From the NCBI GenBank assembly GCA_016195025.1, contig JACQAL010000019.1, positions 1-58,627 on the forward strand: a stretch of 58,627 nucleotides of DNA, written 5' to 3'. Of this stretch, positions 11,515-33,777 are shown in pieces. A model generated the notes under the pieces. It was given only the letters and a program-made list of their open reading frames with translations, was not told the origin of the DNA and did not search any database. How positions within the stretch are numbered: the stretch's first letter is position 1; every line of letters begins with the position of its first letter. Position numbers and translations under genes: made by a program. The DNA is from Bacteroidota bacterium. Its GTDB lineage: Bacteria; Bacteroidota; Bacteroidia; Palsa-948.

Positions 11515-12810
11515 ATGAACGATTTAGGAATCCCGGAAACATTTCAAAAGCGAATCGTTATTATCGGAGGAGGATTTGGCGGCTTGAAACTTTCCGAACT
11601 GCTTTCTCCTTCACTGTTTCAAATTGTGCTTCTCGATAAAAATAACTACCATAATTTTCAGCCCTTGCTTTACCAGGTTGCCACGGGAGGGCTGGAAGCC
11701 GAAAGCATTGCATACCCGCTGAGAAAATCGCTGGGCAAAAATGTTTTCTTCCGCATGATGGATGCAGAAATTATTTTTCCGGAAAAAAATCTGGTTCAGA
11801 CATCTGCCGGAAACCTCAGTTACGATTTCCTGGTGATTGCATCGGGCAGCAAACCGAACTTTTACGGAATAAAATCCATTGAAAAAAATTCGTTCACGCT
11901 GAAATCGGTTCCCGATGCGCTGGACATTCGCAGCTGGCTTTTTCAAAATCTCGAAACTGCCGCTTATGAAAAAGAAATTGTTGAACCGCTTTCGGTTGTA
12001 ATTGCGGGCGGAGGACCAACAGGAGTGGAAGTGGCGGGCGCATTAGCCGATATGAAAAATCATATTCTTCCGCGCGATTACAGGGAACTGAATTTCCGCC
12101 TGGCAAAAATTTATCTCATTGAAGCAGGCGAACGCTTGCTCGGAGCCATGTCAATAAAATCTTCGGAACATGCCTACAACTACCTGCGCACGATGGGCGT
12201 GGAAATTATTCTGAAGCAAAGCGTGAAAAGTTTTGACGGCAACGAAGTTCTTCTCTCGGACGGAAGAATCATTCATACAAAAATATTTTTATGGAATGCC
12301 GGTGTGATTGGAAATTTTATTCCCGGTTTGAAAGAAGAATGCATTCTGAAAAACCAGCGCATTGCCGTGGATGCATATAATAAGGTAAGCGGCTACACAA
12401 ATATTTTTGCCATTGGCGATGCTGCCTGCGCAGAACAACCTCACCCCATGCTTGCGCCCGCTGCCATTCAGCAGGCAAAAAATCTTGCGCACAATTTGAA
12501 TTTGTCGGGCGCCAATCATGCTCAATGGAAAAAATTTCAGTATACCGATAAAGGAGTGCTTGCAACGGTGGGAAGAAACAAAGCCGTTTCAGAAATAAAA
12601 AATATAAAGTTGTACGGATTCATTGCGTGGCTCATTTGGGTATTTGTGCACCTGATGGCGCTGGTGGGTTTCCGAAACCGGGTAATTGTTTTTACCAATT
12701 GGGTAATTAATTACTTCTCGTACAACAGCGCTATCAGGTTAATCATTCATCCTGCAAAAAAAATAATTGTCGCCAGAGAGAAGGCGGAAGCCGGCAAAGA
12801 AGTTCAGTGA
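11515..12810 (+). CDS. ndh: Type II NADH dehydrogenase (NDH-2)
   Basis: 431 aa. FAD-binding Rossmann motif RIVIIGGGFGGLKLSELL at residues 13-30, substrate-facing HNFQPLLYQVATGGLE, NAD(P)-binding VVIAGGGPTGVEVAGALADM at ~160, the FAIGDAAC motif of the second FAD site at ~300, and a C-terminal hydrophobic/amphipathic region (FIAWLIWVFVHLMALVGFRN) for peripheral membrane attachment. It transfers electrons from NADH to quinone without pumping protons. Single gene, no partner. Confidence 0.92.
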   Translation: MNDLGIPETFQKRIVIIGGGFGGLKLSELLSPSLFQIVLLDKNNYHNFQPLLYQVATGGLEAESIAYPLRKSLGKNVFFRMMDAEIIFPEKNLVQTSAGNLSYDFLVIASGSKPNFYGIKSIEKNSFTLKSVPDALDIRSWLFQNLETAAYEKEIVEPLSVVIAGGGPTGVEVAGALADMKNHILPRDYRELNFRLAKIYLIEAGERLLGAMSIKSSEHAYNYLRTMGVEIILKQSVKSFDGNEVLLSDGRIIHTKIFLWNAGVIGNFIPGLKEECILKNQRIAVDAYNKVSGYTNIFAIGDAACAEQPHPMLAPAAIQQAKNLAHNLNLSGANHAQWKKFQYTDKGVLATVGRNKAVSEIKNIKLYGFIAWLIWVFVHLMALVGFRNRVIVFTNWVINYFSYNSAIRLIIHPAKKIIVAREKAEAGKEVQ

Positions 12811-12989: not shown

Positions 12990-13063
12990 GGCGAGGTAGC
13001 TCAGTTGGTAAGAGCACAGGATTCATAACCCTGAGGTCGAGGGTTCAACTCCCTCCCTCGCTA
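12990..13063 (+). tRNA. tRNA-Met (CAT anticodon)
   Basis: Cloverleaf readable by eye: acceptor GGCGAGG/CCTCGCT with a terminal G-U pair, D-arm with AGCTCAGTTGGTAAGAGC, anticodon loop TTCATAA giving CAT, and T-arm GAGGGTTCAACTCCCTC. CCA is not encoded. Its 3' half (13036-13061) is the left attachment site of the genomic island and is repeated at 32789-32814. The gene stays intact at this end. Confidence 0.93.
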
Positions 13064-14696
13064 CTATGTCGGAAATTTTTGCGTGATGGTCGTAAGTTCC
13101 AATATTCATTTCGTCAAACTCCTTTGAAAGTGAGGCAAGTATATTGAAGTATTCATTCACTTCTGGGGTTAGATACTCCCACTTTTTACTATCAAGGAAA
13201 ATCCCACTCGGAAAGAGGACTTTTTGCAGTTCCACATTGGCTTCATAGGGATTGGAAACCCAAAAATTAGAGACATTTGAAAGGAATGAGAATGTTTTCT
13301 CAATCAATTCTTCGAGGTTAGATATTTCCGCAACCGACTTGGCAAGTTCCACCCGCAAGTCCACAATTTGCTGCTCATATTCCGCTTTTAGTTGAGCATA
13401 AAATTCTTCCGACTCCTGAAATTTTCCGATGCCTTTATTCTTTCTCAATTCAGAAAATTCTTTTTCTTTCTGTAAAAGTTTTTGCTTAATGATTTTTTTA
13501 TTCTCGTATTCTTCCCGTTTCACATACTCATACGATTTTCTAAATTGAAGTTTGAACGGCTCAAGAATTATCGGATGGAAAGAATATGATGCAAGCAGAC
13601 GGACGAACTTCTCGTGCGCTCCCTCCCTGATTGACTTAGGAGTGCTATTTGCATTTATACTAACTCCTTTGCATTCCTGACATCTGTAATACCATAATTC
13701 TGCCCAACTTTTTACAACGCGATAACCAACCATTTTACCACTACATTTCTCGCAATACATAATATCGTTTAATGGTAACGCTGGATTTTTTTTGCGGTGT
13801 TTTGACTTGATATGCTTGCCTTCAATTATGTCTTGCACTTTTTTGAATAGTTCCTTAGATACCATCGCTTCCCAATGTCCTTTTATGGGAATCCATCCAG
13901 TAAGATTATTTATTTGCACTCCGCAATAAAACGGATTGCGCCACATATCGTGGAGTTGTTGGGGTCTCATTTTTGTATCATGTCTAATTGTTAACCGCCT
14001 TATTATTTCGGCATCGGTTATTTCTTCATCTACTTTCCAATGCCACGCCTTCTGCAAGATTTTTCCTAAATCGTTAATTACAATTTTTTGAGTAGGAGAA
14101 AAAAAATTCATGTCCTTTACTCTCTTTCCATATAGGTCATATCCTTTCGGGACATTGCCCAACCGATAACCCTTCATTACAAATGCTTTCATTCCAGAAT
14201 AACAAATCTCCCTTTTGTCTTCGTTCTCTTTGTATGCTGTAATGAGATTGTTATAGATGGCTATTTTTCCTTGAGTAGTTGTAGTATCCAATCCAGTTGA
14301 AACCTCAAACAAGTGAACGCCCATCTTTTCAACCAACTCATCTACCAAACCAACTGCGCTTCCACCTGACCTGCTAAATCTGCTCATCTTATATATCAAA
14401 ATAGCATAAGGTTTCACTTTGGCTTTTCTTACTTCTTCAATCATTTTCATAAACTCCTTGCGGGTGAAATCTTTTTTTGCGCTTTCGTAAGTTCCCCCGA
14501 AAACTTTTGTAACAGTAAATTCTTTTTTTACTGCACATAACCTCGCATCTTCCTCCTGTCTTTCTACAGAATCATTATTGATAAACTGATGCTTAGTAGA
14601 TACTCTTGTATATATCCATACGGGAAATATAGTCGTCCTGACTACCTCTTTTATTTTTCTGGCGAACTTTTTGAAATAATCTAATGATGTGTCCAT
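13023..14696 (-). CDS. Large serine recombinase (island integrase)
   Basis: 557 aa. N-terminal resolvase domain with the catalytic serine in YTRVSTKHQ (~residue 31) and arginines in YKMSRFSRSGGSAVG. A Recombinase domain follows, then a zinc ribbon (YCEKCSGKMVGY...YYRCQECKGV, ~residues 315-345) and a coiled coil (~400-470), the architecture of phage-type large serine integrases. The last 15 or so residues (REGVEPSTSGL) are read from the antisense of the tRNA attL sequence, so the C-terminal tail was probably changed by integration. The start codon abuts the small gene at 14699. Confidence 0.9.
   Translation of the reverse strand: MDTSLDYFKKFARKIKEVVRTTIFPVWIYTRVSTKHQFINNDSVERQEEDARLCAVKKEFTVTKVFGGTYESAKKDFTRKEFMKMIEEVRKAKVKPYAILIYKMSRFSRSGGSAVGLVDELVEKMGVHLFEVSTGLDTTTTQGKIAIYNNLITAYKENEDKREICYSGMKAFVMKGYRLGNVPKGYDLYGKRVKDMNFFSPTQKIVINDLGKILQKAWHWKVDEEITDAEIIRRLTIRHDTKMRPQQLHDMWRNPFYCGVQINNLTGWIPIKGHWEAMVSKELFKKVQDIIEGKHIKSKHRKKNPALPLNDIMYCEKCSGKMVGYRVVKSWAELWYYRCQECKGVSINANSTPKSIREGAHEKFVRLLASYSFHPIILEPFKLQFRKSYEYVKREEYENKKIIKQKLLQKEKEFSELRKNKGIGKFQESEEFYAQLKAEYEQQIVDLRVELAKSVAEISNLEELIEKTFSFLSNVSNFWVSNPYEANVELQKVLFPSGIFLDSKKWEYLTPEVNEYFNILASLSKEFDEMNIGTYDHHAKISDIVAREGVEPSTSGL
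13036..13061 (+). repeat. attL, 26-bp tRNA-derived direct repeat
   Basis: Starts GTCGAGGGTTCAACTC and ends CCCTCGC within the tRNA-Met T-arm and acceptor stem; identical to 32789-32814. Confidence 0.88.
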
Positions 14697-18347: not shown

Positions 18348-18408
18348 AGATAAATCACATAAGTCCTGCGCTGTATTTTTTTTGTGCGGGACTAAACACA
18401 AAAAAACG

Positions 18409-20127
18409 ATGAGTGAAAAAATCACAAGCAAAAATTTATGGGGTAAATTAAATTTATCTTCTCTTGACCAACACCCAGAGTTCAAAGAAGACAGCGTTAG
18501 AGAGGTCGTTATTGCCCCACTCTTAAAAGCCCTTCAATACAAAGAAGAAAATATTAACCGAAGCAAAACATTAGTAAATCCTTTTCTCAAGGTTGGTACA
18601 AAAAAAATTCCCATTCATCAATATCCAGATTATTGCTTCAATGTTGATGGCTATTTTGCATGGGTGCTGGACGCAAAAAGTCCCAAAGAAAGCGTTACGG
18701 ATTCCGAAAATTTAGGACAGGTTTACAGTTATGCCGCTCACCCTGAAATAAAAAGTACATATTTCGCTCTATGCAATGGAAAAGATTTTTCCTTGTATCG
18801 GACACAGGCGCAAGCAAATGATTTGCCTTTGCTTAATTTTTCGCTAAGTGAAATAGAACATTACTGGGAGAAACTTTCAATGTTTCTTTCACTCAATAGT
18901 TTTCAGGCGGGTAAAATTTTCACTTATGAAACAACGACCGCAACAGCAAAGCCAGAAGGATTTGATTATAGCACCAGACCCTTGCTGGAAGAAATCCCAG
19001 TAAGAAAACAGGCGGCAAAAAGGCATTTTGGTTGTAATGCTTATTTTACTCGTCAATCTTGGGACATTGTTAATGAGTATATAAAAAACTTTTCAAAACC
19101 AAATGATTTAGTTCTTGACTGTTTTGGTGGAAGCGGAGTAACTGCGATTGAAGCATTAATGTTGGATAGAAAGGCAATTCACATTGATTTGAACCCATTA
19201 TCAGAATTTATAGTTACATCTCTTGCTTCTCCTGTCAATCAAAACGAATTTATTGACGCATTCAATAGAATTAAAAAAGATTATGAAAAAGAAGAACCTA
19301 TAACGAAAGAAGAAATTAAAAAAGCATTGAAAAAATATTTTTCTCCTAAAGGATTCAAATTACCAAAAGGTTCTGATGTAGAAACAATAGAAGATTTATT
19401 CACCGATAAACAACTTGCTCAACTCGCATTATTAAAATATTTAATACATAAAGAAAAAAATGGGAATATAGAAATGTCTTTGTTGCTTGCTTTTTATAAT
19501 ACAATAAGCATTATTAATAAAACATTTCACGAAACACCAAAAGGAGGAGGAAATCATTTTGGATACTATTACCGATATAGAATTGCACCACGACCAGCAG
19601 ACAGAGATACATTAAAAACTTTTGAAGGTAAATTCAAAAGAATTTTAGAAGGGAAAAAAGAAATGTCTTCTAAAATAAACAATCAGACATTTAAAAATCT
19701 TACAATAAAAAAGGGAACAGCAACAAATCTGAAATGGCTTCAGAAAGAAAGTGTGGATTACATTTATACAGACCCGCCATACGGAAAGAAAATTCCCTAT
19801 TTAGATTTATCAATAATATGGAATACTTGGCTTGACCTTAAAGTAACAGAACAAGATTATATGCAAGAAGCCATTGAAGGAGGAGAGCATAATAAAACAA
19901 AAAAAGATTACAACAAGTTAATTTCAGAAAGCATTAAGGAAATGTATCGCGTGTTAAAATACGACCGATGGATGAGTTTTGTATTTGCACATAAAGACCC
20001 AGAATTCTGGCATTTGATTATAGAGACAGCCGAAGATTGCGGATTCGAGTATAAGGGGGCAGTTCCCCAAAAAAACGGGCAATCAAGTTTTAAGAAAAGA
20101 CAAAATCCTTTTACTGTTTTATCTTGA
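18409..20127 (+). CDS. HsdR_N-type nuclease domain fused to DNA methyltransferase
   Basis: 572 aa from the ATG at 18409. Residues ~20-175 resemble the N-terminal PD-(D/E)xK domain of type I restriction subunits (EDSVREVVIAPLLKALQY, YPDYCFNVDGYFAWVLDAK, with a plausible D...DxK core). Residues ~200-570 are an amino-methyltransferase: YFTRQSWDIVNEYIKNF, motif I VLDCFGGSGVTAIEAL (~235), then ~200 residues later motif IV TDPPYGKKIPYLDLS (~455), the alpha-class order. Predicted N6-adenine or N4-cytosine methylation with possible self-contained cleavage. Heads a co-directional run with 20173 and 20746. Confidence 0.8.
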   Translation: MSEKITSKNLWGKLNLSSLDQHPEFKEDSVREVVIAPLLKALQYKEENINRSKTLVNPFLKVGTKKIPIHQYPDYCFNVDGYFAWVLDAKSPKESVTDSENLGQVYSYAAHPEIKSTYFALCNGKDFSLYRTQAQANDLPLLNFSLSEIEHYWEKLSMFLSLNSFQAGKIFTYETTTATAKPEGFDYSTRPLLEEIPVRKQAAKRHFGCNAYFTRQSWDIVNEYIKNFSKPNDLVLDCFGGSGVTAIEALMLDRKAIHIDLNPLSEFIVTSLASPVNQNEFIDAFNRIKKDYEKEEPITKEEIKKALKKYFSPKGFKLPKGSDVETIEDLFTDKQLAQLALLKYLIHKEKNGNIEMSLLLAFYNTISIINKTFHETPKGGGNHFGYYYRYRIAPRPADRDTLKTFEGKFKRILEGKKEMSSKINNQTFKNLTIKKGTATNLKWLQKESVDYIYTDPPYGKKIPYLDLSIIWNTWLDLKVTEQDYMQEAIEGGEHNKTKKDYNKLISESIKEMYRVLKYDRWMSFVFAHKDPEFWHLIIETAEDCGFEYKGAVPQKNGQSSFKKRQNPFTVLS

Positions 20128-20172
20128 CAACTAATTATCAATTTTCAAAAAGTAAAAAATCCAAGAGCGGTA

Positions 20173-20658
20173 ATGAAAGCGCATTTAGGAATGAAAATTG
20201 CCGACATAGTTTTACAAACCATTGAAGGAATTATAGCGAAGAATGAAGGCGCATCACTCGAACAAATAAATGATGAACTTATTATTAAAGGAATGGAATT
20301 AGGATTCCTCCACCTGTTAAAAAAAGAGTATTCCGATTTAACTCCTATTCTGTTGGAGCATTTTGATTACAGCGAACAAACAAAACTTTTCACTATCAAA
20401 AAAGACAGCAAATTCAAAACGCATGTTGATACCGCGCTACGCATCCGTTATTATCTGATAAGTTTTATGAGAAGAATGGAAAGGGAAGGAAGGAATCCAA
20501 CTTTTGATGAGATTGAATTTAACATTTTACCGCTATTAAAAAATGGTGTGACTCCACCCAAACAATCCATTGAGAAAGTTCTAAAAGATATTGGTGAACA
20601 TATCGGTGAGGATAGATGGAAATTAAAAAAGGGTGGGCAGGGAAAATTATTTGAGTAG
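20173..20658 (+). CDS. Winged-helix-like partner of the methyltransferase
   Basis: 161 aa: MKAHLGMKIADIVLQTIEGI, RYYLISFMRRMEREGRNPTF, DEIEFNILPLLKNGVTPPKQ, IGEDRWKLKKGGQGKLFE. The second half fits a winged helix ('deIe..IlplLkNG.tP..q.i..vL..i.e..g..rWkl'). It starts 45 nt after the methyltransferase stop, so a shared transcript and function are likely. Role inferred as DNA recognition or a subunit of the modification complex. Confidence 0.6.
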   Translation: MKAHLGMKIADIVLQTIEGIIAKNEGASLEQINDELIIKGMELGFLHLLKKEYSDLTPILLEHFDYSEQTKLFTIKKDSKFKTHVDTALRIRYYLISFMRRMEREGRNPTFDEIEFNILPLLKNGVTPPKQSIEKVLKDIGEHIGEDRWKLKKGGQGKLFE

Positions 20659-20745
20659 CGCGAATTGAGTGACCATCAGTTGAAAGAATACTGGAAAGAA
20701 TTTCAAATTGAAAAATAATAATTCATAAATAAATATCAATGTCCA

Positions 20746-22008
20746 ATGGCAAAAGAAAATTCCATCAAATGCCCTGAGTGCGGGGCAGAGATTGATGTAA
20801 ACGCAGTGCTTTATCATCAACTCTCCGAGCAGGCAAAAAAAGAGAACGAAAAAAAGTTCGCCAAGAAAGAGCAAGAACTTTCGGAAAAAGAAAAACAACT
20901 TAAGGAGGATAGGAAAAAACAGGATGAAGTAGTCGAACAGGAAGTGGATTCCAAACTTAAAGCAGAGAAGAAGAAATTGGAGGAATCCATTCGCAAAAAA
21001 GTGAATGACGACAAAATGGATGAGATGGAAGCAATGAAAAAAGAATTGGATGAAAAATCTGAACAAGTAAAACAGTTAGGAAAATTAAAAGCCGACCTCG
21101 CTCGCACCGAAAGAGAAAAGCAAGAACTCAAAGACCAGATAACTGCCGAGCAGGAAGAAAAGTTCAATCAACTTCTGGCGAAGGAAAAGGAAAAGATTCA
21201 AAACGATGAAGGGGAAAAAAATAAAACCGAACTCCAGAAACGCCAAAAACTCATAGAGGATTTGAATAGCAAACTTGAAGAAGCCAAAAGAAAATTAGTG
21301 GAGAGTTCAAACAAACAGACGGGCGAAATCAAAGAAATAGAGTTGCGGGATTTTCTCAAAGTAACTTTTCCTATTGATGAAATCGGAGATGTGCCGTCAG
21401 GAGTGAATGGAGCGGATGTAATGCAGTATGTCCGCAGCAACATCGGGCAACCGAGCGGACTAATTTTATACGAGAGAAAGGAAACCCAAAAGAAGTGGGG
21501 TGCAGATTGGGTTTCCAAACTGAAAGATGATGGGAGACGAGCAAAAGCGGATATATGCGTTATTGTTTCTCATGCGATGCCGCCAGATAATCAGGAAACG
21601 CATTTCAGGGAAGGTGTTTGGGTTTGTACATTCTCCGATGTAAAAATTCTAACTACGCTGTTAAGAGATGGACTTATCAAGCAATACGCTGCTATTACTT
21701 CTCAAACCGACAAGGGAACGAAAGCAGAAATGCTGTATGCCTATTTGCATAGTCCAGAATTTAAGAATCATATTACTGGCGTGCTGGATGCCTTCAAAAA
21801 AATGGATGCAGCCCTCCAAAAAGAAAGAGTAGATGCGTTAAAAAAATTTGCTGAAAGAGATGCGGACATTTTGCAGGCGAAGCAAAGTTTAATCAACTTC
21901 TGGCACAAAGTGGATAGGATAGCAACGGATAGTTTGAGCAAGGAAATTAAAATTCTGGAAACGCCTGTTCAACCACAGTTGGGCGAAGGGCAAGTGGAAG
22001 CAAATTAA
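20746..22008 (+). CDS. DUF2130 protein with zinc ribbon and coiled coil
   Basis: 420 aa. N-terminal CPECGAEIDVNAVLYHQL ribbon half, then a ~170-residue charged coiled coil. The DUF2130 domain occupies ~residues 200-400: GEIKEIELRDFLKVTFPIDE, NGADVMQYVRSN, GLILYERKETQKKWGADWVS, VIVSHAMP, FREGVWVCTFSDVK, KAEMLYAYLHSPEFKN. GAD followed by YERK resembles the D...ExK core of PD-(D/E)xK nucleases (inference). Follows the methyltransferase genes by 87 nt; it may be the nuclease arm of the same system. Confidence 0.8.
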   Translation: MAKENSIKCPECGAEIDVNAVLYHQLSEQAKKENEKKFAKKEQELSEKEKQLKEDRKKQDEVVEQEVDSKLKAEKKKLEESIRKKVNDDKMDEMEAMKKELDEKSEQVKQLGKLKADLARTEREKQELKDQITAEQEEKFNQLLAKEKEKIQNDEGEKNKTELQKRQKLIEDLNSKLEEAKRKLVESSNKQTGEIKEIELRDFLKVTFPIDEIGDVPSGVNGADVMQYVRSNIGQPSGLILYERKETQKKWGADWVSKLKDDGRRAKADICVIVSHAMPPDNQETHFREGVWVCTFSDVKILTTLLRDGLIKQYAAITSQTDKGTKAEMLYAYLHSPEFKNHITGVLDAFKKMDAALQKERVDALKKFAERDADILQAKQSLINFWHKVDRIATDSLSKEIKILETPVQPQLGEGQVEAN

Positions 22009-22287: not shown

Positions 22288-22704
22288 ATGAACGAATACG
22301 ATTACTACAAGCGAGAACAATACCGTAAACAACGCATTAAAAAAATAATACAGGCAGAAGAAGATTCCGTTAGAGAAAATTATCAAATCATCTATAATTT
22401 CCTGAAGTCAGTAGGAAAGAATTTTGCGCGAGATGAAAAAATTAAACACCTGAAAGAGTTTGAACTATTCATTGATGATTTGCCCGAACCGAAGAATGCC
22501 AAAATAAACTGTTGCAATTTAATTTTCTGGTCAGTCCTGATGTTTCCTTTCAAATGGTTAGCCACATACGAGGATTTGGACGGGAACATAATGGGCGAAA
22601 TAGCAGACAAGGCGGTGCAAGCGCAGAAACTTATGCCTGATGATAGGAAGCAAGCGCAGGATTGTTCTTTATTCAGGAAGTATAATAAAACTCTATTCGT
22701 ATGA
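22288..22704 (+). CDS. Hypothetical helical protein, first of a coupled trio
   Basis: 138 aa: YDYYKREQYRKQRIKKIIQA, NYQIIYNFLKSVGKNFARDE, CCNLIFWSVLMFPFKWLATY, CSLFRKYNKTLFV. Its overall pattern parallels the next protein (helix, then 'nilFwavlm...lqfa.ky', ending 'SLf.KY.ktLFv'), so the two are distant paralogues. The stop overlaps the next ATG (GTATGA). Family not recognised. Confidence 0.6.
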   Translation: MNEYDYYKREQYRKQRIKKIIQAEEDSVRENYQIIYNFLKSVGKNFARDEKIKHLKEFELFIDDLPEPKNAKINCCNLIFWSVLMFPFKWLATYEDLDGNIMGEIADKAVQAQKLMPDDRKQAQDCSLFRKYNKTLFV

Positions 22705-23105
22705 AAGAAGAATTTATTTCACTTGAGGATGAAAAAATAATCAGAGATTCTTATGCTGAACTTCTTGATTGGCTTAAAGAGCGCGGAGTTTTTGCTTACA
22801 AACTTGAACAGGAAGGCAGAAAAAAAGGAATTCCATTGAGCGAAGAAAACGACCCTTATCTGAAGGCGTTAGAAAAAGTAAAAGAATTGCCCGCAGCAGA
22901 AAAAGCACACTTTACCGAAATGAACATTTTATTTTTTGCTGTGATTATGGGACGGCTTCAATTTGCTGGAAAATATTTTAGGAGTGCAATTACTTTTCTG
23001 GAACAGGCAAATAACGCATTGAAATTGCAAGGGCAATCATTCGCAGATTTTGAAATCTATAAAAAAAGTTCTCTATACCAAAAATATAAAACACTATTCC
23101 TATGA
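22701..23105 (+). CDS. Hypothetical helical protein, second of a coupled trio
   Basis: 134 aa: EKIIRDSYAELLDWLKERGV, EMNILFFAVIMGRLQFAGKY, FEIYKKSSLYQKYKTLFL. Overlaps both neighbours by 4 nt, which implies translational coupling. Paralogue of 22288 by its C-terminal motif. The hydrophobic central helix is short and not clearly a membrane span. Confidence 0.6.
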   Translation: MKEEFISLEDEKIIRDSYAELLDWLKERGVFAYKLEQEGRKKGIPLSEENDPYLKALEKVKELPAAEKAHFTEMNILFFAVIMGRLQFAGKYFRSAITFLEQANNALKLQGQSFADFEIYKKSSLYQKYKTLFL

Positions 23106-23686
23106 AAAATTCTGAACTTGAAATTCCATTTTTTGAAACATCATTCTTGCAGGAATGGTACATCCAATTTTTGGAGCAAATAATTATTGACGAATATCCT
23201 TTTTTCATGGAGGATATAATAAAAGATGAATCTGCTCAGAAGGCAATCATAGCCCACAGAAATTTCGGTTTGATTTCTATGGCAAGTAAGAAAGGAACTT
23301 CGCTTTTCAATCTGCTGGATGTGGCTGGCAAATGGGAGAATTTTCTTCTTGCTGCAATTACCTCCCGTCACGGAGAAACACTAATGCGAATACTTATTCA
23401 TCAACCGAAAAGTTTATCCGAGAAGATAATAATTCAAAAATTGGTTGCCAATGCTGGTTTTACCAGATTGTTTCTTGAGGAAGAAATGGTTGGCTGCCCT
23501 GAATTATCATACACGATTCACAGAGGAAGAAAATTATCCATTGAGGAAGCAAAGCCGTATGAAGATGCCCTATCAATGCTTCAGCACTTATGCAAGCAGG
23601 TTGGGGCGCGGGATATTGTTCAGGATGTGAAGGTGCGGGAAAATAAAAACGGAAAATCCGTTAAAGGAAGGCGAAAGAATAACTGA
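23102..23686 (+). CDS. Hypothetical protein, third of a coupled trio
   Basis: 194 aa: SFLQEWYIQFLEQIIIDEYP, DESAQKAIIAHRNFGLISMA, ENFLLAAITSRHGETLMRIL, YTIHRGRKLSIEEAKPYEDA, with a basic C-terminal tail (ENKNGKSVKGRRKNN). Start overlaps the previous stop. No family recognised. After the stop, a short in-frame-looking scrap (ERFNELIKSLDNK, about 23690-23728) suggests a decayed gene. Confidence 0.6.
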   Translation: MKNSELEIPFFETSFLQEWYIQFLEQIIIDEYPFFMEDIIKDESAQKAIIAHRNFGLISMASKKGTSLFNLLDVAGKWENFLLAAITSRHGETLMRILIHQPKSLSEKIIIQKLVANAGFTRLFLEEEMVGCPELSYTIHRGRKLSIEEAKPYEDALSMLQHLCKQVGARDIVQDVKVRENKNGKSVKGRRKNN

Positions 23687-24562: not shown

Positions 24563-25264
24563 ATGAAAGAACAATTACGAATTTCCGCTAAAGATTTAGG
24601 CGCAATGGCTCTGCCCGATTTCTGCCCGCGCTGTTTCTGGATTGAATGGCATTCCGATTCACTTCCGTTTCCGACACCTTTTGCTGGAATATTTTCTTCC
24701 ATTGACAGTTACACGAAAAAAGTAACCAACATTCATCACGATAAGCACAATCATATTCCAAAGTGGTTTCAAAAGTTCGGCATCAAAGGCGTTCCGCAAG
24801 AAGTTTCAAAGAATTTTTTTATCGAAGACAATGCAACTAATATTAAACTCACGGGAATTCCAGATGAAGTCCTAAAGGATGGAAAGAATTATACTATCCT
24901 TGACTACAAGACCGCCCGCTTCACCGAGCATCAGGATGAACTGTTTCCGATGTACGAAATTCAGTTAAATGGCTACGCTTGGATTGCAGACCAAACAGGA
25001 TTCAGTCCTGTTACCAAACTGGGACTGGTATATTATGAACCGCAGACAAATTTAACGCTGGATAGCATCCAAGATTTTCTTCGCCCCACAGGATTTACTA
25101 TGCCCTTTGATGCAAATTACAGAGCCGTTGATTTGAATGTGTCCAAAGTCAAACGGCTGTTGAAACAATCGCGGGAAATTATGGATTTGAAAAAGCCGCC
25201 TAAAGGAAAATCCGATTGTGAAAATTGTGAGTCGGTGAAAAATCTTTTGGAATTGTTAAACTAA
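24563..25264 (+). CDS. Cas4/RecB-like PD-(D/E)xK nuclease with four cysteines
   Basis: 233 aa. Nuclease core: LTGIPDEVLKDGKNYTILDY then KTARFTEHQDELF and the RecB-type motif YEIQLNGYAWIADQTG. N-terminal CPRCFWIEW and C-terminal DCENCESVKNLL supply four cysteines, as in Cas4/AddB 4Fe-4S nucleases. No CRISPR array or Cas gene is in the window, so a solo Cas4-like role in defence or recombination is inferred. A degraded second copy lies at 26020. Confidence 0.78.
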   Translation: MKEQLRISAKDLGAMALPDFCPRCFWIEWHSDSLPFPTPFAGIFSSIDSYTKKVTNIHHDKHNHIPKWFQKFGIKGVPQEVSKNFFIEDNATNIKLTGIPDEVLKDGKNYTILDYKTARFTEHQDELFPMYEIQLNGYAWIADQTGFSPVTKLGLVYYEPQTNLTLDSIQDFLRPTGFTMPFDANYRAVDLNVSKVKRLLKQSREIMDLKKPPKGKSDCENCESVKNLLELLN

Positions 25265-26019: not shown

Positions 26020-26398
26020 GAGATACTGAAGGACGGAAAAAATTATTCCATCCTCGATTACAAAACTGCTCGCTATACACCTAACCAAGATGTATTGTTT
26101 CCGATTTATGAAATCCAACTTAATGGCTACGCATGGATAGCAGACCAGACGGGATTTAGCCCCGTTACTAAACTTGGCTTGGTTTATTACGAACCTCAGA
26201 CAAACCTTACAATTGATAATATCAAGTCCTACATTCATACTGATGGGTTCGCCATGCCGCGTTGAAGTGAATGTTTCCAAAGTTAAACGGCTACTCAAAC
26301 AAGCGCGTGAGATTTATGACTTAAAACGCCCGCCAAAAGGAACGGTAGATTGTGAGGACTGTCAGTCGCTAAAGAACCTGATTGACTTGGTCAGTTAA
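26020..26398 (+). pseudogene. Decayed second copy of the Cas4-like nuclease
   Basis: Encodes EILKDGKNYSILDYKTARYT and YEIQLNGYAWIADQTGFSPV, closely matching residues ~98-180 of 24563. A ~20-nt deletion after GFAMP shifts the frame, and NVSKVKRLLKQAREIYDL ... DCEDCQSLKNL continues in another frame. The 5' third is missing. Just upstream (about 25739-25975) an open stretch without a start (YEKEFKTPITNYGKEQILLT ...) looks like debris of a different gene. Confidence 0.8.
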
Positions 26399-26441: not shown

Positions 26442-29399
26442 TTAAGAATGTATGATTAGGTTAGAACTACCGATTTGCTTACTTTGCTCAAATAGTTTAT
26501 TCATAAAATTTCTTATCGGCTCTGCAAGTTGTTCCCTGCTTTGTATAAACTTAATCCCTTCTTGAATAAATATTTTTCTAAGCAATTTAGTTTCCGAAAC
26601 GGATATGCCCCTTAATGCAAAATGTTTTTCCGCGATAGCGATGGTTTGCTGTCCGACTGCTTTTTTGAATTCAGCACAATCGTTCAGGATTTCTTTATTG
26701 AATATCACGCCAAACGCCCTTGACATAAGTACTCCAGAATATCTGCCCGTCCTGCCAAGAAGAATCAAATCTTCCTGCGTGAACCGAAATTCGGTTGATA
26801 AACTAATATCTTCAGTTTCTCTTATACTCTCGATAAAGAATAATAATTCTTTTTCGTCTTCTGGAATCGGCTTTCGGTTTTTTGGCGGGACGATGGACAG
26901 GTATATGTGTGAAATTTTTTTAGGAAAGATAAACGAGAAGTCATTCAGAAAATTAGTTAGCCCTTCTTTGACTGCATCGCTGACAGTCCCCCAACTCAAC
27001 TGCTCATTGCCATTTACAAAAGTTATGCCCGTAGTTCTGCTTAAAGAATCAATAAAAATATTTCCGCTTTGATTATAGAAATGCAGTTTGGTTTTTCTTT
27101 CAAATATTCCGTTTAGGATGGCGCGGAATCTCTCCCGTTGAATTCCCCCTATATCCTCCACCAGTTTTATTTCCGAATTCAGTTTTTTTAAGGTGAATTT
27201 CTCGTACCTTTTTGTGGGAGGCAAGCCGATTAGTTCTCCGTGCTTTTTAACAATAATGATATTCTGGTGAAATAAAATATAATCTGCATCATTAAAAAAA
27301 TCTTGAGCAACTTCTCCCTCAAATAAAAAATACAGAACATTCAATACATTTATGCTCCCGATATTTGATAAATTTCCACCAGTCATTACCTCACACAAAG
27401 CGTGGCTGTTTTCCGATGTCAATATATCCTGTCTTTCGCAAAATTCACATAACTCCTTGTTAGTTCTCAATAAATCTTTCCATTCTTCAGAATACTTATC
27501 AAACGCTTTTGCTTCTTCATCTACTTCTTTATTCAATTCTTTGAGGCGGGATAAAATCAAATCTAATTTTGTTACATCGAGTTCTTCATAACTGATTTCA
27601 TATTTTTTCTCTTCAGGAAAATATTCCATAGTAAAAAACTTTTTCCCTTTTTTGACTTTTATCAAGTCCTCATAGCCGACTGGAACAACGGTAACATTAT
27701 CCGAATTTAATTTTACGATGATGTGCCTGATGATTTTCTTTTGTTTGCCCTCTATGTAAACAGTCGTCATTTTACTGGGATAAAACTTCGGGTTATACTG
27801 CTCAAGGAAGTATTTAATTTCGGCAATCTTATTTTTCTTTTTTTCTTCTTTGCGACTTCCTGTAATTCTTTTAATATGGGGATAAAGAGATTTAAGCCAC
27901 CTGTCAGATAATTGCTGGTAAAATAATTTTTCATCGAAATCCCTTTCAATGATATGCCAGTATTGGCTTTCTTTCAGGAATTTCACATAAGAAGGGAGGA
28001 TGTTGGCTAATCGCGGCTGTTCTATGTTTTGCGTCTTGAATTTTTCCAAATCTAAAATGCTAAGGCATTCGCTGTATAGGAATGATGTGATATTTTTGAA
28101 AATCAGATTTTTTCTGATTCTATTTATGAGCAATACCAAATTGAAAAAATTATGTGTTTCTACACCTTTAATGATAAAAGATTTCTGTATTTCCAATTCA
28201 TCATGAATTTTATTGATATTCAAGAGACCTCTTTTTTTCACCGCGATGTTTACTTCTGCTTCTACTTTTATATTCCTAAGTTTGAATTCGCGTTCCAGAA
28301 AATCGCAAATCTCCTGTGATTGGATATTGGAATAATTTCGGATAGTATCACCGTTGATTTCTTTCCCATCTTTCAGTATTTCCCAAATTGCATCCACAAT
28401 TTTTTCAAGGGAGATTACTCCTTTTAACTGTCGCGTAAATGTTTGTCTGGTTTTTCTGACCGCTTTCCTGATAGCACTTTTTTCCGCCTTTTCTTCCTGA
28501 AATTTTCTAAGTTCCTCAAGTTCATATTTGCTTTGTATTTCGCATCGTGTCAGGAACTCGCAAATCTCCTCAGGTATTTCATGCGGAATAATTTTTCGGA
28601 TGCTGTCATACTCAATTCCCTTTTCTTCTATCAATGCTATCGCAATTATTTCTTTGACTTGTTCTTCCGAAAGTTTTGGGAAAATTTTATTCAGCACAAT
28701 GGTTAATACCTCCTCATTTTCATCCTTTTCGTTGCATTTTTTTTCTTCCCAATGCCTGACAAATTCTTTGCAAAATTCCGACTGAACTTCGTATGTTCTG
28801 AAGTTGAAAATCCGATGATGATATTTTTTCTCGCTGTTGCAGAAGCAGGCGACTGCATCGTCTAAAATCAGCGGGGGCTTCTGGCAGATGAAATGTTTTA
28901 TTCGTTTGTAAAAAGAATAATGAAAGGAGTGTATTTCTTTCTGGAAATCTTCTTCAAATTGTTTTATATTATTTACAATCCTTTTGGCGTAGATGGATGA
29001 CTTTTCACTCTCTAATTTGATGTCTGGATATAATTGCTGTTGCAGCAAATCGGCTATCTTCTCACGATATGCTATTTTTTTTACTCCTATTGCATTGTTA
29101 CTCCGATTAGATGTCCTGATTAAAATTCCATCCAGTTCAAATTCTGGAACGAACCTGAAATCCGCATTTGGCGGTATTTCGTCAATCAAACTGAATGCAA
29201 AAAAGAATTCAGGGGAAACAGGCAGGTCTGAATTTGTATGCTTCCCGATAATCACTTTTGCTTTTTCAATATTTATTTCTTCTTCAAGTTGCTTTTCAAG
29301 GTTCTCCCTGTTGAGTTTAACGGCTTCTTCAACCCCAGAAGACAGGTAATCAAAAAATTCCTGCTTTACCGATGCCTGCAATGCCGTTGTTGTTTTCAT
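26442..29399 (-). CDS. Large unrecognised protein (985 aa)
   Basis: No signal peptide or membrane span. N-terminal part: FFFAFSLIDEIPPNADFRFV, PEFELDGILIRTS. Middle: long helices with a basic segment (EKAEKSAIRKAVRKTRQTFT) and HTH-like repeats of 'eICdFL.R' (EEICEFLTRCEIQSKYELEE, SQEICDFLEREFKLRNIKVE). Cys/His positions: LCEFCERQDILTSENSHALC. C-terminal alpha/beta part: YLSIVPPKNRKPIPE, LLGRTGRYSGVLMSRAFGVI. No NTPase, nuclease or protease motif is evident. Second gene of an operon with 29404 (4-nt gap). AT-rich codon use. Confidence 0.75.
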   Translation of the reverse strand: MKTTTALQASVKQEFFDYLSSGVEEAVKLNRENLEKQLEEEINIEKAKVIIGKHTNSDLPVSPEFFFAFSLIDEIPPNADFRFVPEFELDGILIRTSNRSNNAIGVKKIAYREKIADLLQQQLYPDIKLESEKSSIYAKRIVNNIKQFEEDFQKEIHSFHYSFYKRIKHFICQKPPLILDDAVACFCNSEKKYHHRIFNFRTYEVQSEFCKEFVRHWEEKKCNEKDENEEVLTIVLNKIFPKLSEEQVKEIIAIALIEEKGIEYDSIRKIIPHEIPEEICEFLTRCEIQSKYELEELRKFQEEKAEKSAIRKAVRKTRQTFTRQLKGVISLEKIVDAIWEILKDGKEINGDTIRNYSNIQSQEICDFLEREFKLRNIKVEAEVNIAVKKRGLLNINKIHDELEIQKSFIIKGVETHNFFNLVLLINRIRKNLIFKNITSFLYSECLSILDLEKFKTQNIEQPRLANILPSYVKFLKESQYWHIIERDFDEKLFYQQLSDRWLKSLYPHIKRITGSRKEEKKKNKIAEIKYFLEQYNPKFYPSKMTTVYIEGKQKKIIRHIIVKLNSDNVTVVPVGYEDLIKVKKGKKFFTMEYFPEEKKYEISYEELDVTKLDLILSRLKELNKEVDEEAKAFDKYSEEWKDLLRTNKELCEFCERQDILTSENSHALCEVMTGGNLSNIGSINVLNVLYFLFEGEVAQDFFNDADYILFHQNIIIVKKHGELIGLPPTKRYEKFTLKKLNSEIKLVEDIGGIQRERFRAILNGIFERKTKLHFYNQSGNIFIDSLSRTTGITFVNGNEQLSWGTVSDAVKEGLTNFLNDFSFIFPKKISHIYLSIVPPKNRKPIPEDEKELLFFIESIRETEDISLSTEFRFTQEDLILLGRTGRYSGVLMSRAFGVIFNKEILNDCAEFKKAVGQQTIAIAEKHFALRGISVSETKLLRKIFIQEGIKFIQSREQLAEPIRNFMNKLFEQSKQIGSSNLIIHS

Positions 29400-29403
29400 C
29401 TGC

Positions 29404-30672
29404 TTAATATTTTTCGATTATATCAAAGAAACTGCCTACTATATTTTTATGCCTGTCTAATCGCTTGAGTGTTTTTTGCCGTATGATAGGTCTGTCGGAT
29501 TTTTCAAACGAAAAGTATTGGGTGAGATACCGTTCAAGGTTCGATAATGAAATGCCGTTTTTATGTATGGGCTTTAGTGTTCTTTCTGACTCAAAATTAA
29601 AATATATTGAGTTGATAATTTCGCAGGCAGTAACATTGACATAACTCATGGATTGCATTAAGTAATTTTTTGTCGTCAGCGGGGAGTCGTCAAAGGTGTG
29701 GTAAACTTCCAGCATAGCCAGTTCAACATTTTTTTCTGGGCGCACCAACTCTTTTTCAAAAAACTTTTTTTCATCTGGATTCACGGCAAAAATCATTTCG
29801 AGCGATTTCGCGTACTCGTCAATTATCCGTATCAGGAGCATCTGCTGTTTTACGCTTAGTGGTTTCCCGCCACAAATGAACCGATACGAAATGCTTTTCA
29901 GTATCCTCAAATCGTCTTTTATCTTGGAAGATTTAGAGCCGAAGAATTCTTCTATTCTGCGGTTTTCCATTTTGAGTTTGACCATCAGTTCCGTATGGCT
30001 CTGAATAAGCGAATAAAATTTCTGGGAAAAGGTGTCGGTCAATCTACCCTTTCTTTTCGGGTACATTTCTTTTTGCACCTTTAGTAGCATCAGCAAAAAA
30101 TCTATCGGGTTGTCCTTGTAGTCGAACATCCTCGCCCTGAAATCAATGTTGAACCTGAACAGGTCTTTTTTTGCAAAAAGTATCTGCTGACATATATAAC
30201 TGAGCCACTCCATTGTGGGCGCATAATTTTCTCCCTTGACTTCAGCGTTCTGCATCCTCTTTTCAATTTCTTTCATCTTAGGAAATTTGTTAAACAGCGG
30301 GACTCTAAACACAAGGGAGAAATACGGCTTTATTATTTTCCAAATCTCATCTCTTGTCATTTTCTGCGCGACATCGGAATATTTTTGAAGTTCCCGAAGT
30401 TCTTGCTGCGTTATGTTTTCAAAATTTATTTTTGCTTTGTTTGCAGAGATATACCGTTCCGAAAGGTTTGAAATTATTTCTTCGTCTTCCTTTGTAAGTC
30501 CTCCTTCAATTTTTATGTCGCTTATAGTCGGGAGGCGGGGCAGGTCAATCGGCTTGCGTATCACCAAAAATTTTTCTTGTTGTTTAATAGCCAGAATAAG
30601 TTCTTTACCGTTTGTATCTTCGGAATATTGCACGCGGTCTTCATCAGTAATTATGATGTCTATGTTTTCCAT
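29404..30672 (-). CDS. Unrecognised helical protein (422 aa), first gene of the operon
   Basis: N-terminal beta segment (IDIIITDEDRVQYSE, ELILAIKQQEKFLVIRKPID), then nearly all helices: DEIWKIIKPYFSLVFRVPLF, MEWLSYICQQILFAKKDLFR, DFLLMLLKVQKEMYPKRKGR, YAKSLEMIFAVNPDEKKFFE, ERYLTQYFSFEKSDRPIIRQ. No membrane segment or catalytic motif recognised. Divergent from 31035 across a 362-bp AT-rich region with repeated AAATAATATT boxes. Probably works with the 985-aa protein. Confidence 0.72.
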   Translation of the reverse strand: MENIDIIITDEDRVQYSEDTNGKELILAIKQQEKFLVIRKPIDLPRLPTISDIKIEGGLTKEDEEIISNLSERYISANKAKINFENITQQELRELQKYSDVAQKMTRDEIWKIIKPYFSLVFRVPLFNKFPKMKEIEKRMQNAEVKGENYAPTMEWLSYICQQILFAKKDLFRFNIDFRARMFDYKDNPIDFLLMLLKVQKEMYPKRKGRLTDTFSQKFYSLIQSHTELMVKLKMENRRIEEFFGSKSSKIKDDLRILKSISYRFICGGKPLSVKQQMLLIRIIDEYAKSLEMIFAVNPDEKKFFEKELVRPEKNVELAMLEVYHTFDDSPLTTKNYLMQSMSYVNVTACEIINSIYFNFESERTLKPIHKNGISLSNLERYLTQYFSFEKSDRPIIRQKTLKRLDRHKNIVGSFFDIIEKY

Positions 30673-30872
30673 TTTAACTTTATGTCCAGAATGTTAAATT
30701 TTGGTGTGAAAATGTGTTATCCGATGTTCTACTCAAAAGTAATAAGAATCCTACCAATCTACTTTTATCTTGATTAAAAAATAAAAGAAGCGAGAAGCAG
30801 ATTAGTTAGTGTAGAGATTTTGGGACTTCGCTATATGAGACCGACATCTATTAAAAAAAGAAAAACTGGGAT

Positions 30873-31007
30873 AAATAATATTAAATATCTCCTGTGAATC
30901 ACCCCCAAAGACCAGATTAAATATTATTTCTCCCTTTTTCTTGCCATAACTCTTTTCTAAATAATATTTTTTGTTCAGAACTTAGTCCATAGAAATAATA
31001 TTATTTC
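30873..31007. promoter_or_regulatory. AT-rich divergent control region with repeated boxes
   Basis: AAATAATATT at 30873-30882, a similar box at 30959-30968, and the perfect 16-bp palindrome GAAATAATATTATTTC at 30992-31007 lie between the 422-aa gene (minus) and the 136-aa gene (plus). Repeated dyads in a divergent promoter suggest an operator. GCCATAACTC (30943) also faces GAGTTATGGC (31496) on the far side of the small gene. No gene is seen in 30673-31034. Confidence 0.5.
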
Positions 31008-31034
31008 CATAATTTTATTTTATCTTAGCGTCTG

Positions 31035-31445
31035 ATGAGGCAGAAAAAAGTCAGCATAAACGGCAACCTTTTTAGTACCAAACTCGAAGGGCTTTTCCAT
31101 TCATTACTAAGACGGGAAGGAATAGCATTCCGCCAGAACCAGAATGCAGAACTGATTCCAAAATTTAATTATCTGAATGAGGACTGCTCTGCCTTAAAAC
31201 TGAAGATACAGTTTATGTTCAAAGACATGGCAGGACGGCTTTATTATGTGTTTGTAAGCAATAGGAACGACAATGTGAAGCGAATTAAGATTCTTATGCT
31301 GAAAAATCTTTTGAGGCGCACAAATCAAATTGCATACATCTTCAATGTTTCTGACGAGGCAGGAGCAAATGAAGTGCTACACTCTATTAAAAAAATTTCT
31401 TCTTCACCTACAAATTCAAATTCTTCTGCTCCGTTATCAGTATAA
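31035..31445 (+). CDS. Hypothetical 136-aa protein, divergent from the two-gene operon
   Basis: MRQKKVSINGNLFSTKLEGL, FHSLLRREGIAFRQNQNAEL, KLKIQFMFKDMAGRLYYVFV, RRTNQIAYIFNVSDEAGANE, Ser-rich tail. The order E-(helix)-beta-beta is loosely reminiscent of small nuclease-like folds, but no catalytic set is evident. Its position suggests regulator or accessory of the adjacent operon (inference). Bounded by an inverted pair of 10-bp repeats. Confidence 0.55.
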   Translation: MRQKKVSINGNLFSTKLEGLFHSLLRREGIAFRQNQNAELIPKFNYLNEDCSALKLKIQFMFKDMAGRLYYVFVSNRNDNVKRIKILMLKNLLRRTNQIAYIFNVSDEAGANEVLHSIKKISSSPTNSNSSAPLSV

Positions 31446-31582
31446 TTTTTTTTGAAAAATTTAATATTATTTTTTCTTTCCCCTTTTTTTCCGATGAGTT
31501 ATGGCAGGTCATCGTTTTTTTTCTTAATGTATAAAATCGGCAGAAAAACTACTGCCCGTAAGTCATAAAGCGGTACTATGAC

Positions 31583-32305
31583 CTAAGCCGCCCGTTCCTT
31601 TCTCCAATAAAGTATCTGAACTGCCTTAGGGTAAAAACTTTTTCCTCTGGAAGTTCTGAATCCTTCGCGGTTGAGACGGTCGGCAATTTTTTGGTAGGTC
31701 ATCTTTCGTTCTTTCCGCAACGCATAAACATATCCGATTGCCCGCTTGTTATTCGGATTCTCTTTTGCCAATCGGATAATGACCTTTGTTCCCTTCTCCC
31801 TCGCTTCATCGGTAAGATTTTCTGGTGTTCCGAGTTTTTTGCCTCGCTCCTTTAATGCTTTTAATGCGCTGCGGGTTCGCTCTGAAATCCGTAAGATTTC
31901 TTCTTCATTCAAACTTGTTTTTAGTTTAATGATAAGCGGTGTATCACGCGGGCTTTCCGCTGAAACAAATTCAACATTACTGCTAAGTAAAAAATCAATC
32001 AATAGTGAAAAGCGAGACAGACGGGACGCTTCTTTTACAACGAGTATTGCGCCTTCTTTCTTTGCTGTATTGATTGCTTTTAACAGCAATGGTCGTTTCT
32101 TCAGCAGGGTATCAATACTTACATGGCTATCCATGCGAATCCTGTCTTTGTTCGCTGCGGTTTCTATTTCTGTAAAACTCTCTATGATTACACCATCCAC
32201 AGATTGCACATAGGTTTCCACAGAGAATTTTTGTGCATCGAGTCCCAGCCCAGAATGTTTTTGCTTCTGAGTGCTGACCCTATAATACGCTATATATTTT
32301 TTCAT
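31583..32305 (-). CDS. Small serine recombinase (resolvase/invertase type)
   Basis: 240 aa. YYRVSTQKQKHSGLGLDAQK holds the catalytic Ser; VVKEASRLSRFSLLIDFLL carries the conserved Arg residues. The C-terminal HTH is MTYQKIADRLNREGFRTSRG. An insertion (ANKDRIRMDSHVSIDTLLKK) between the first and second conserved blocks is unusual. It may resolve, invert or help excise the island, whose right end lies 0.5 kb away. Confidence 0.85.
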   Translation of the reverse strand: MKKYIAYYRVSTQKQKHSGLGLDAQKFSVETYVQSVDGVIIESFTEIETAANKDRIRMDSHVSIDTLLKKRPLLLKAINTAKKEGAILVVKEASRLSRFSLLIDFLLSSNVEFVSAESPRDTPLIIKLKTSLNEEEILRISERTRSALKALKERGKKLGTPENLTDEAREKGTKVIIRLAKENPNNKRAIGYVYALRKERKMTYQKIADRLNREGFRTSRGKSFYPKAVQILYWRKERAA

Positions 32306-32593: not shown

Positions 32594-32788
32594 ATTCAAA
32601 ATATTTATTTATTATTTATTACAACAGGTTCTATTCACTCCCATTAGTATTATTTTGCCTATGTTTGGTGATGAAAGTTTGAGGGGATTGAAGGACTATC
32701 CAGCCGTTCCGTGAATTCTGCAACCTTTAAGAAATCGGAAATAAGTTGGTTAGATATTTTGAACCCCCTCGCTACTCTTTTTGCTGAA

Positions 32789-32814
32789 GTCGAGGGTTCA
32801 ACTCCCTCCCTCGC
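32789..32814 (+). repeat. attR, 26-bp tRNA-derived direct repeat
   Basis: Identical to 13036-13061. An additional CCCTCGCTACT, matching the tRNA 3' end, lies 20 nt to the left (32767-32777), so the junction may be composite. Confidence 0.88.
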
Positions 32815-32901
32815 AACTTCTTCTATCCTTTCAAAAATTTTATATAACTGTTTGCAGATTAGATTTTTTTTATACATTGCCCGCAGTTTTACACACTCGC
32901 C

Positions 32902-33777
32902 ATGGCAAAAAGAAAAAAACAAAAATCGCGCAAATCAAAAGCGAAGCGGAACAAACCGAAAAAAAAGAAATCCGCTGCAAAAAAATCTTCCCGCTCAAAA
33001 ACAAAACTGAAAAAGAAAAAACCGGCAAGAAAAAAATCGAAAAAGATTTCGAAAGCAAGAAAAGTAAAGCAGGCAAAGAAAAAGGCATCTAAAGCAAAAA
33101 AGAAGAAAGCAAAAAAAGTTTTGAAGAAAAAAAAACTTAGCAAGAAAAAATTAAAAGCCGCTGCTAAGAAAGAGAAGATTTCAAAAAAGGAAAAGAAAAA
33201 AGAAAAACCGGCAGTGGCTCCGCTTGAAATAGTTTCTGCCAAGACAAAAGAAACTGCCGAACAACTTCCCAAGCCGCCCAGCCCGAAAGTTATTGCGAGA
33301 GCAAAAGCAGCGCTCGAGGCAAAAGAAAAAGCAAAAATTCCTCCGCTCCCCATTGATAAAGCCGCTGCGGAGAAGCAGTTAAAACTTGCCGAGCCGAAAA
33401 ATAAACTGGTACTCGAATACATCATTCACTCTTCCCCTGCCCTGCTTTTTGAATTCCTCACAGCGCCCAGCGGATTATCAGAATGGTTTGCCGATAATGT
33501 GAACATCAGCGGAAGCGTATATTCATTTTTATGGGAAGGCGCAGAGCAAAAAGCAAAAGTATTGTCGGCACAAGAAAATAAATCCATCCGTTTTCAATGG
33601 ATGGACCGTCCGGCAAATTCCTACTTTGAATTGCGCATTGAAAAAAATGAACTCACCGATGAACTTTCTTTGCTCATCACCGATTTTGCCGAATCTCCCG
33701 AAGAAACAAATTCGCTTGAAGTGCTCTGGCAAGGACAGGTTCAGCGCCTGATGAAAGTAATTGGTTCCAAAATTTAA
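32902..33777 (+). CDS. START-like domain protein with histone-like Lys-rich arm
   Basis: 291 aa. Residues 1-100 are about half lysine with Ala/Ser/Arg (AKRKKQKSRKSKAKRNKPKK ...), like histone H1 tails, followed by a Pro/Ala linker. Residues ~165-291 are the Bacteroidota START-like domain: LVLEYIIHSSPALLFEFLTA, PSGLSEWFADNVNISGSVY, FLWEGAEQKAKVL, WQGQVQRLMKVIGSKI. The family is normally a ~130-aa stand-alone protein of unknown ligand. The arm predicts nucleic-acid or ribosome binding. First gene right of the island. Confidence 0.8.
   Translation: MAKRKKQKSRKSKAKRNKPKKKKSAAKKSSRSKTKLKKKKPARKKSKKISKARKVKQAKKKASKAKKKKAKKVLKKKKLSKKKLKAAAKKEKISKKEKKKEKPAVAPLEIVSAKTKETAEQLPKPPSPKVIARAKAALEAKEKAKIPPLPIDKAAAEKQLKLAEPKNKLVLEYIIHSSPALLFEFLTAPSGLSEWFADNVNISGSVYSFLWEGAEQKAKVLSAQENKSIRFQWMDRPANSYFELRIEKNELTDELSLLITDFAESPEETNSLEVLWQGQVQRLMKVIGSKI

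Follow-up and report, generated by a model that had tools for sequence, protein, structure and literature searches.

The locus lies on contig JACQAL010000019.1 of a Bacteroidota bacterium whose assembly comprises 3.5 Mb in 79 contigs, and was analysed in a stretch of 58,627 nucleotides (the window). Two large genes on the minus strand, gene A (422 aa, 29404-30672), the first gene of the operon, and gene B (985 aa, 26442-29399), the second, are separated by a gap of 4 nt. The initial annotation had described them as intact open reading frames 4 nt apart, and their coordinates and frames were verified in the window. Because the gap is only 4 nt, the two genes are presumably co-transcribed. The gene A protein is basic (pI 9.05), has no transmembrane segment, is soluble by hydropathy and is predicted, at low confidence, to be mostly helical; the gene B protein has a pI of 7.5 and is also soluble by hydropathy.

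The pair is carried by an island of 19.8 kb, with a 35-bp repeat from the 3' half of tRNA-Met at each end. The left attachment repeat (13031-13065, plus strand; CTGA[G/A]GTCGAGGGTTCAACTCCCTCCCTCGC[T/A]ACT) lies inside the tRNA-Met gene (12990-13064), and the right one (32784-32818, plus strand) is identical to it at 33 of 35 positions. At the left end, a large serine recombinase of 557 aa (13023-14696, minus strand) is the probable island integrase, and a small serine recombinase or resolvase of 240 aa (31583-32305, minus strand) is encoded at the right end. With tRNA-Met direct repeats at both ends and a serine recombinase at one, the island is genuine, and the share of it first ascribed to the gene pair, a fifth, was measured as 21%. 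The conflict genes of the island comprise a PglX-like DNA methyltransferase, Fic, DUF2130, cREC and a Cas4-like nuclease; the conflict-type neighbours named at the outset (methyltransferase, Fic, cREC, Cas4-like, recombinases) were all recovered. The methyltransferase, with a PglX-like C-terminus, is followed by a 161-aa protein of no assigned family and by the DUF2130 protein (18382-22008), a run that is possibly a restriction-like operon. Three overlapping small genes (138, 134 and 194 aa; 22288-23686) are without a family match. A 179-bp stretch (24872-25050) of the Cas4-like PD-(D/E)xK gene (24563-25264) recurs with 78% identity at 26026-26204, directly before the gene pair, as a decayed copy with a broken frame.

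On its right the island is bordered by a START_2-domain gene (32902-33777), which adjoins tRNA-Met, with the island absent, in four of six congeners. The orientation of tRNA-Met (12990-13064) relative to the START_2 gene (32902) in the window is opposite to that in those four congeners, and because of this difference the integration site is, judged by gene order, one with a history more complex than a single insertion; the site may have undergone an inversion or a complicated course of insertion. Several degenerate tRNA-Met fragments adjoin the intact gene in another congener, G004 (L024 900-1330), as if left over from repeated integrations at the site. Six congeners lack a close counterpart of the NDH2-type dehydrogenase gene (11515-12810) that lies to the left of the island.

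Neither protein had initially been given an assignable motif, a judgement upheld by profile, PDB and motif searches. Whole proteins and overlapping segments of A and B gave chance-level matches alone in Pfam, NCBIfam, PADLOC and PHROGs, as did sequence searches of the PDB, with profiles that are weak in being built from two close sequences alone. In PADLOC-DB 2.0.0, gene B had no match and gene A a single one at chance level (E 0.007, over 49 residues). No catalytic or sensor domain or motif, usual in defence systems and not required of them, was recognised in A or B, and no P-loop, nuclease or HEPN motif was found. Several candidates were rejected. A match to HTH_60 (E about 0.02-0.03) was dropped, this family having no above-cut-off match in 198 genomes of the phylum; tandem HTH-like segments in B (residues about 247-289 and 329-371), plausible by eye, score no better than the shuffled whole protein; HEPN-, HNH- and HUH-like strings were absent, not conserved in the related pair described below, or badly placed; and an Rfam match to MIR844 fell far under the cut-off. 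Structure prediction, one of the routes first proposed for both proteins, was run on alignments of two sequences, too few to be useful to AlphaFold, and the AlphaFold2 models of A and B (pLDDT 40 and 30) were unusable and were rejected as input for a fold search.

Among 60 relatives, gene B is present only in the congener G005, in which both genes stand on contig C116 in the order seen in the window, so that the sole relative found has the two genes together, the co-occurrence in other islands that the initial annotation had looked to. Identity between G005 and the window is 91% for gene B and 89% for gene A. When the 60 kb around the G005 pair was compared with the window at the nucleotide level, a single match was obtained (window 26442-30691, 92%), which defines the transferred unit on the minus strand as the two coding sequences and about 19 nt upstream of A, the ribosome-binding region. 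Homology ends on one side with the stop codon of B and on the other about 19 nt ahead of gene A, and similarity beyond these two ends is no better than that of simulated sequence. The breakpoints thus fall outside the pair, and the two genes are inherited as one.

Between the window and G005, dN/dS is 0.22 for gene B and 0.14 for gene A, values far below 1 that rule out chance open reading frames. Because of them, A and B are regarded as real genes; by this measure both encode functional proteins in both species, under purifying selection. dS is 0.19 for gene B and 0.42 for gene A, compared with 0.90-1.04 for rpoB of the same genome pair. Since the dS of the pair is so far under that of rpoB, vertical inheritance is ruled out, and substitution rates place the movement of the pair between the two species, or into both, after their split. 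Within gene A, codons 211-351 have a dS of about 0.8, the remaining codons 0.14-0.43. The peak suggests recombination of gene A with a third, more distant allele, and further, unsampled members of the family therefore probably exist.

The pair is otherwise very rare. Apart from the two known carriers, none of 395 sampled genomes of the class has gene B, and none of 395 sampled genomes of the phylum has either gene. Two pattern scans of one genome per species, covering 84,980 species, gave no further copy, scans of this kind detecting close relatives only, so that distant ones may exist. No copy of the pair was found in IMG/VR, or in plasmids and phages searched with tblastn, and weak genome matches outside the genus carry stop codons or sit in rpoB or rpoC frames. 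The two outcomes named beforehand as speaking against a new system, a confident match of both proteins to a known one or homologues mostly apart and in core genomes, were not encountered.

A gene of 136 aa (31035-31445, plus strand) diverges from the pair and lies outside the transferred unit. Its product shows faint similarity to the DUF1374, DUF1064 and VirArc nuclease models (E 0.004-0.1), which are of the PD-(D/E)xK type and whose catalytic residues it apparently lacks. The initial annotation had grouped this gene with the pair, an association that does not hold in G005: no homologue was found beside the G005 pair or elsewhere in that genome. A "match" in the congener G001 contains internal stops and was taken as chance.

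Between the divergent genes, AATAATATT boxes of either orientation are clustered (30873-31007; boxes at 30873, 30920, 30959 and 30993/30997). The intergenic region, 362 bp long, contains five AATAATATT/AATATTATT boxes where 0.05 are expected, a number reached in 0 of 20,000 simulations, and one more box is located at 31463. The repeated AT-rich boxes first noticed by eye are accordingly not due to chance, and the 16-bp palindrome reported with them (GAAATAATATTATTTC, 30992-31007) is exact. The inverted pair GCCATAACTC/GAGTTATGGC is likewise exact, extending to 11 bp, but is only mildly unlikely by chance (P about 0.03). In the window the AATAATATT repeats lie about 200-335 bp ahead of the pair, on its upstream side. 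In G005, two boxes form the inverted repeat GGAATAATATTAAAATC-T-GATTTAAATATTATTCC (P 0.003) about 257-291 bp before A, with perfect arms of 11 bp, or arms of 17 bp with one mismatch. Each of these two genomes has the inverted box pattern at only two sites, and five other congeners have it at none. The boxes are probable protein-binding sites, and because the flanks of the two pairs share nothing else, they may travel with the pair, for which the upstream AATAATATT repeats are probably operators. A candidate -7 element of the Bacteroidota type, TACTTTTG (30734-30741, minus strand), known by its match to the consensus TAnnTTTG only, stands about 62-69 bp upstream of gene A, much nearer to A than the boxes do. 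The window boxes are closer to the 136-aa gene than to this likely promoter of the pair, and may serve that gene instead.

The element that carries the pair in G005 has 38-bp att repeats in tRNA-Thr. Its tyrosine integrase adjoins the pair, on whose other side a replication-like module follows; among its genes are those for an AAA (DnaC-like) ATPase and an excisionase-type HTH protein. Over L004 9365-19961 and L005 1600-4368 it also encodes a zeta-toxin-like protein, an NYN ribonuclease and a complete type I restriction-modification system (HsdR, HsdM and HsdS), in which an SMC gene similar to Lamassu LmuB separates HsdM from HsdR. The window and G005 elements differ in kind, and the pair is independent of element type.

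A mobile, selected two-gene unit is thus common to two species. Because both copies sit in tRNA-gene elements among restriction and other conflict genes, a defence role of undescribed type is the reading that the genomic context at the two loci tentatively favours. A and B are best read as one horizontally mobile cargo operon which, by this association, is most likely directed against phages or other elements. In Escherichia coli the immune repertoire resides mostly on mobile elements (PMC10121019), and satellites and prophages keep defence cargo beside the integrase (PMC9122126); the position of the G005 pair next to its integrase was counted in favour of defence, as a place for such cargo (PMC9122126). 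Like the cargo of the P4/P2-type hotspots (PMC9122126) and of the E. coli islands (PMC10121019), the pair is compact, intact and horizontally exchanged, and resides in an att-flanked integrative element beside restriction or conflict genes. It differs from that cargo in that no described defence family matches it and in being known from two species only, its part in defence being putative. The pair stands beside established defence genes in independent elements, but at two loci only, too few for a strong argument from association, and such extreme rarity would be unusual in a successful defence system. The absence of a PADLOC profile match and of a recognised catalytic domain or motif also speaks against a defence role.

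In a defence system of this kind, two soluble cytosolic proteins would act together, probably as a complex, and islands would retain the pair for protecting the host and themselves from phages or competing elements. It may be conjectured that the large protein B recognises an invading nucleic acid or a phage product, and that the basic, helical protein A is its partner or effector.

It is unlikely, if conceivable, that the pair belongs to a known two-gene defence system but has diverged too far for sequence profiles to recognise it. Defence proteins change fast in evolution, and the two close sequences supplied neither strong profiles nor a useful AlphaFold alignment; against this, no marginal but consistent match emerged in PADLOC or the PDB, and the P-loop, nuclease and HEPN motifs that most such systems carry are missing. 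The two-gene systems of PADLOC-DB 2.0.0 resemble the pair in having two large genes that lie side by side, read in one direction and move together, but A and B reach no meaningful profile score and contain no recognised ATPase, nuclease, helicase or sensor domain. That they instead constitute a new two-protein immune system, two families without known relatives whose exact pair has spread among the islands of a poorly sampled genus, is itself quite unlikely on present evidence.

Doubtful, too, is a role in element maintenance or mobility, in which A and B would bind the AATAATATT repeats and aid persistence, segregation, replication or excision. The recurrence of one repeat core upstream of both copies of the pair, in contexts otherwise unrelated, the restriction of the inverted pattern to only two places per genome, and the place of the G005 pair between integrase and replication-like module are all consistent with such a function. 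The recombinases, however, differ (serine in the window, tyrosine in G005), as do the tRNA genes, so the pair is not bound to any single integration system, and neither A nor B matches an ATPase, a relaxase or a ParB-like protein. In being neighbours on a mobile element and having inverted repeats upstream, the two genes also recall type II toxin-antitoxin modules, but 422 and 985 aa are far above the typical size of such partners, and with no toxin or antitoxin domain found in A or B the pair does not fit that class. Integrative islands hold mixed cargo, some of it unrelated to defence; a function in counter-defence, stress response or host manipulation is nevertheless improbable, both known copies being among restriction and other conflict genes.

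If the pair does serve in defence, as tentatively preferred here, it would add two protein families missed by every library searched, and would show that lineages with sparse sampling harbour systems of their own, beyond the pool that is shared. Ending at the gene boundaries, the unit common to both species is a clean cassette for testing. If its role is a different one, a conserved, selected and mobile gene pair is still at hand, and that role would partly explain what islands gain from large orphan genes.
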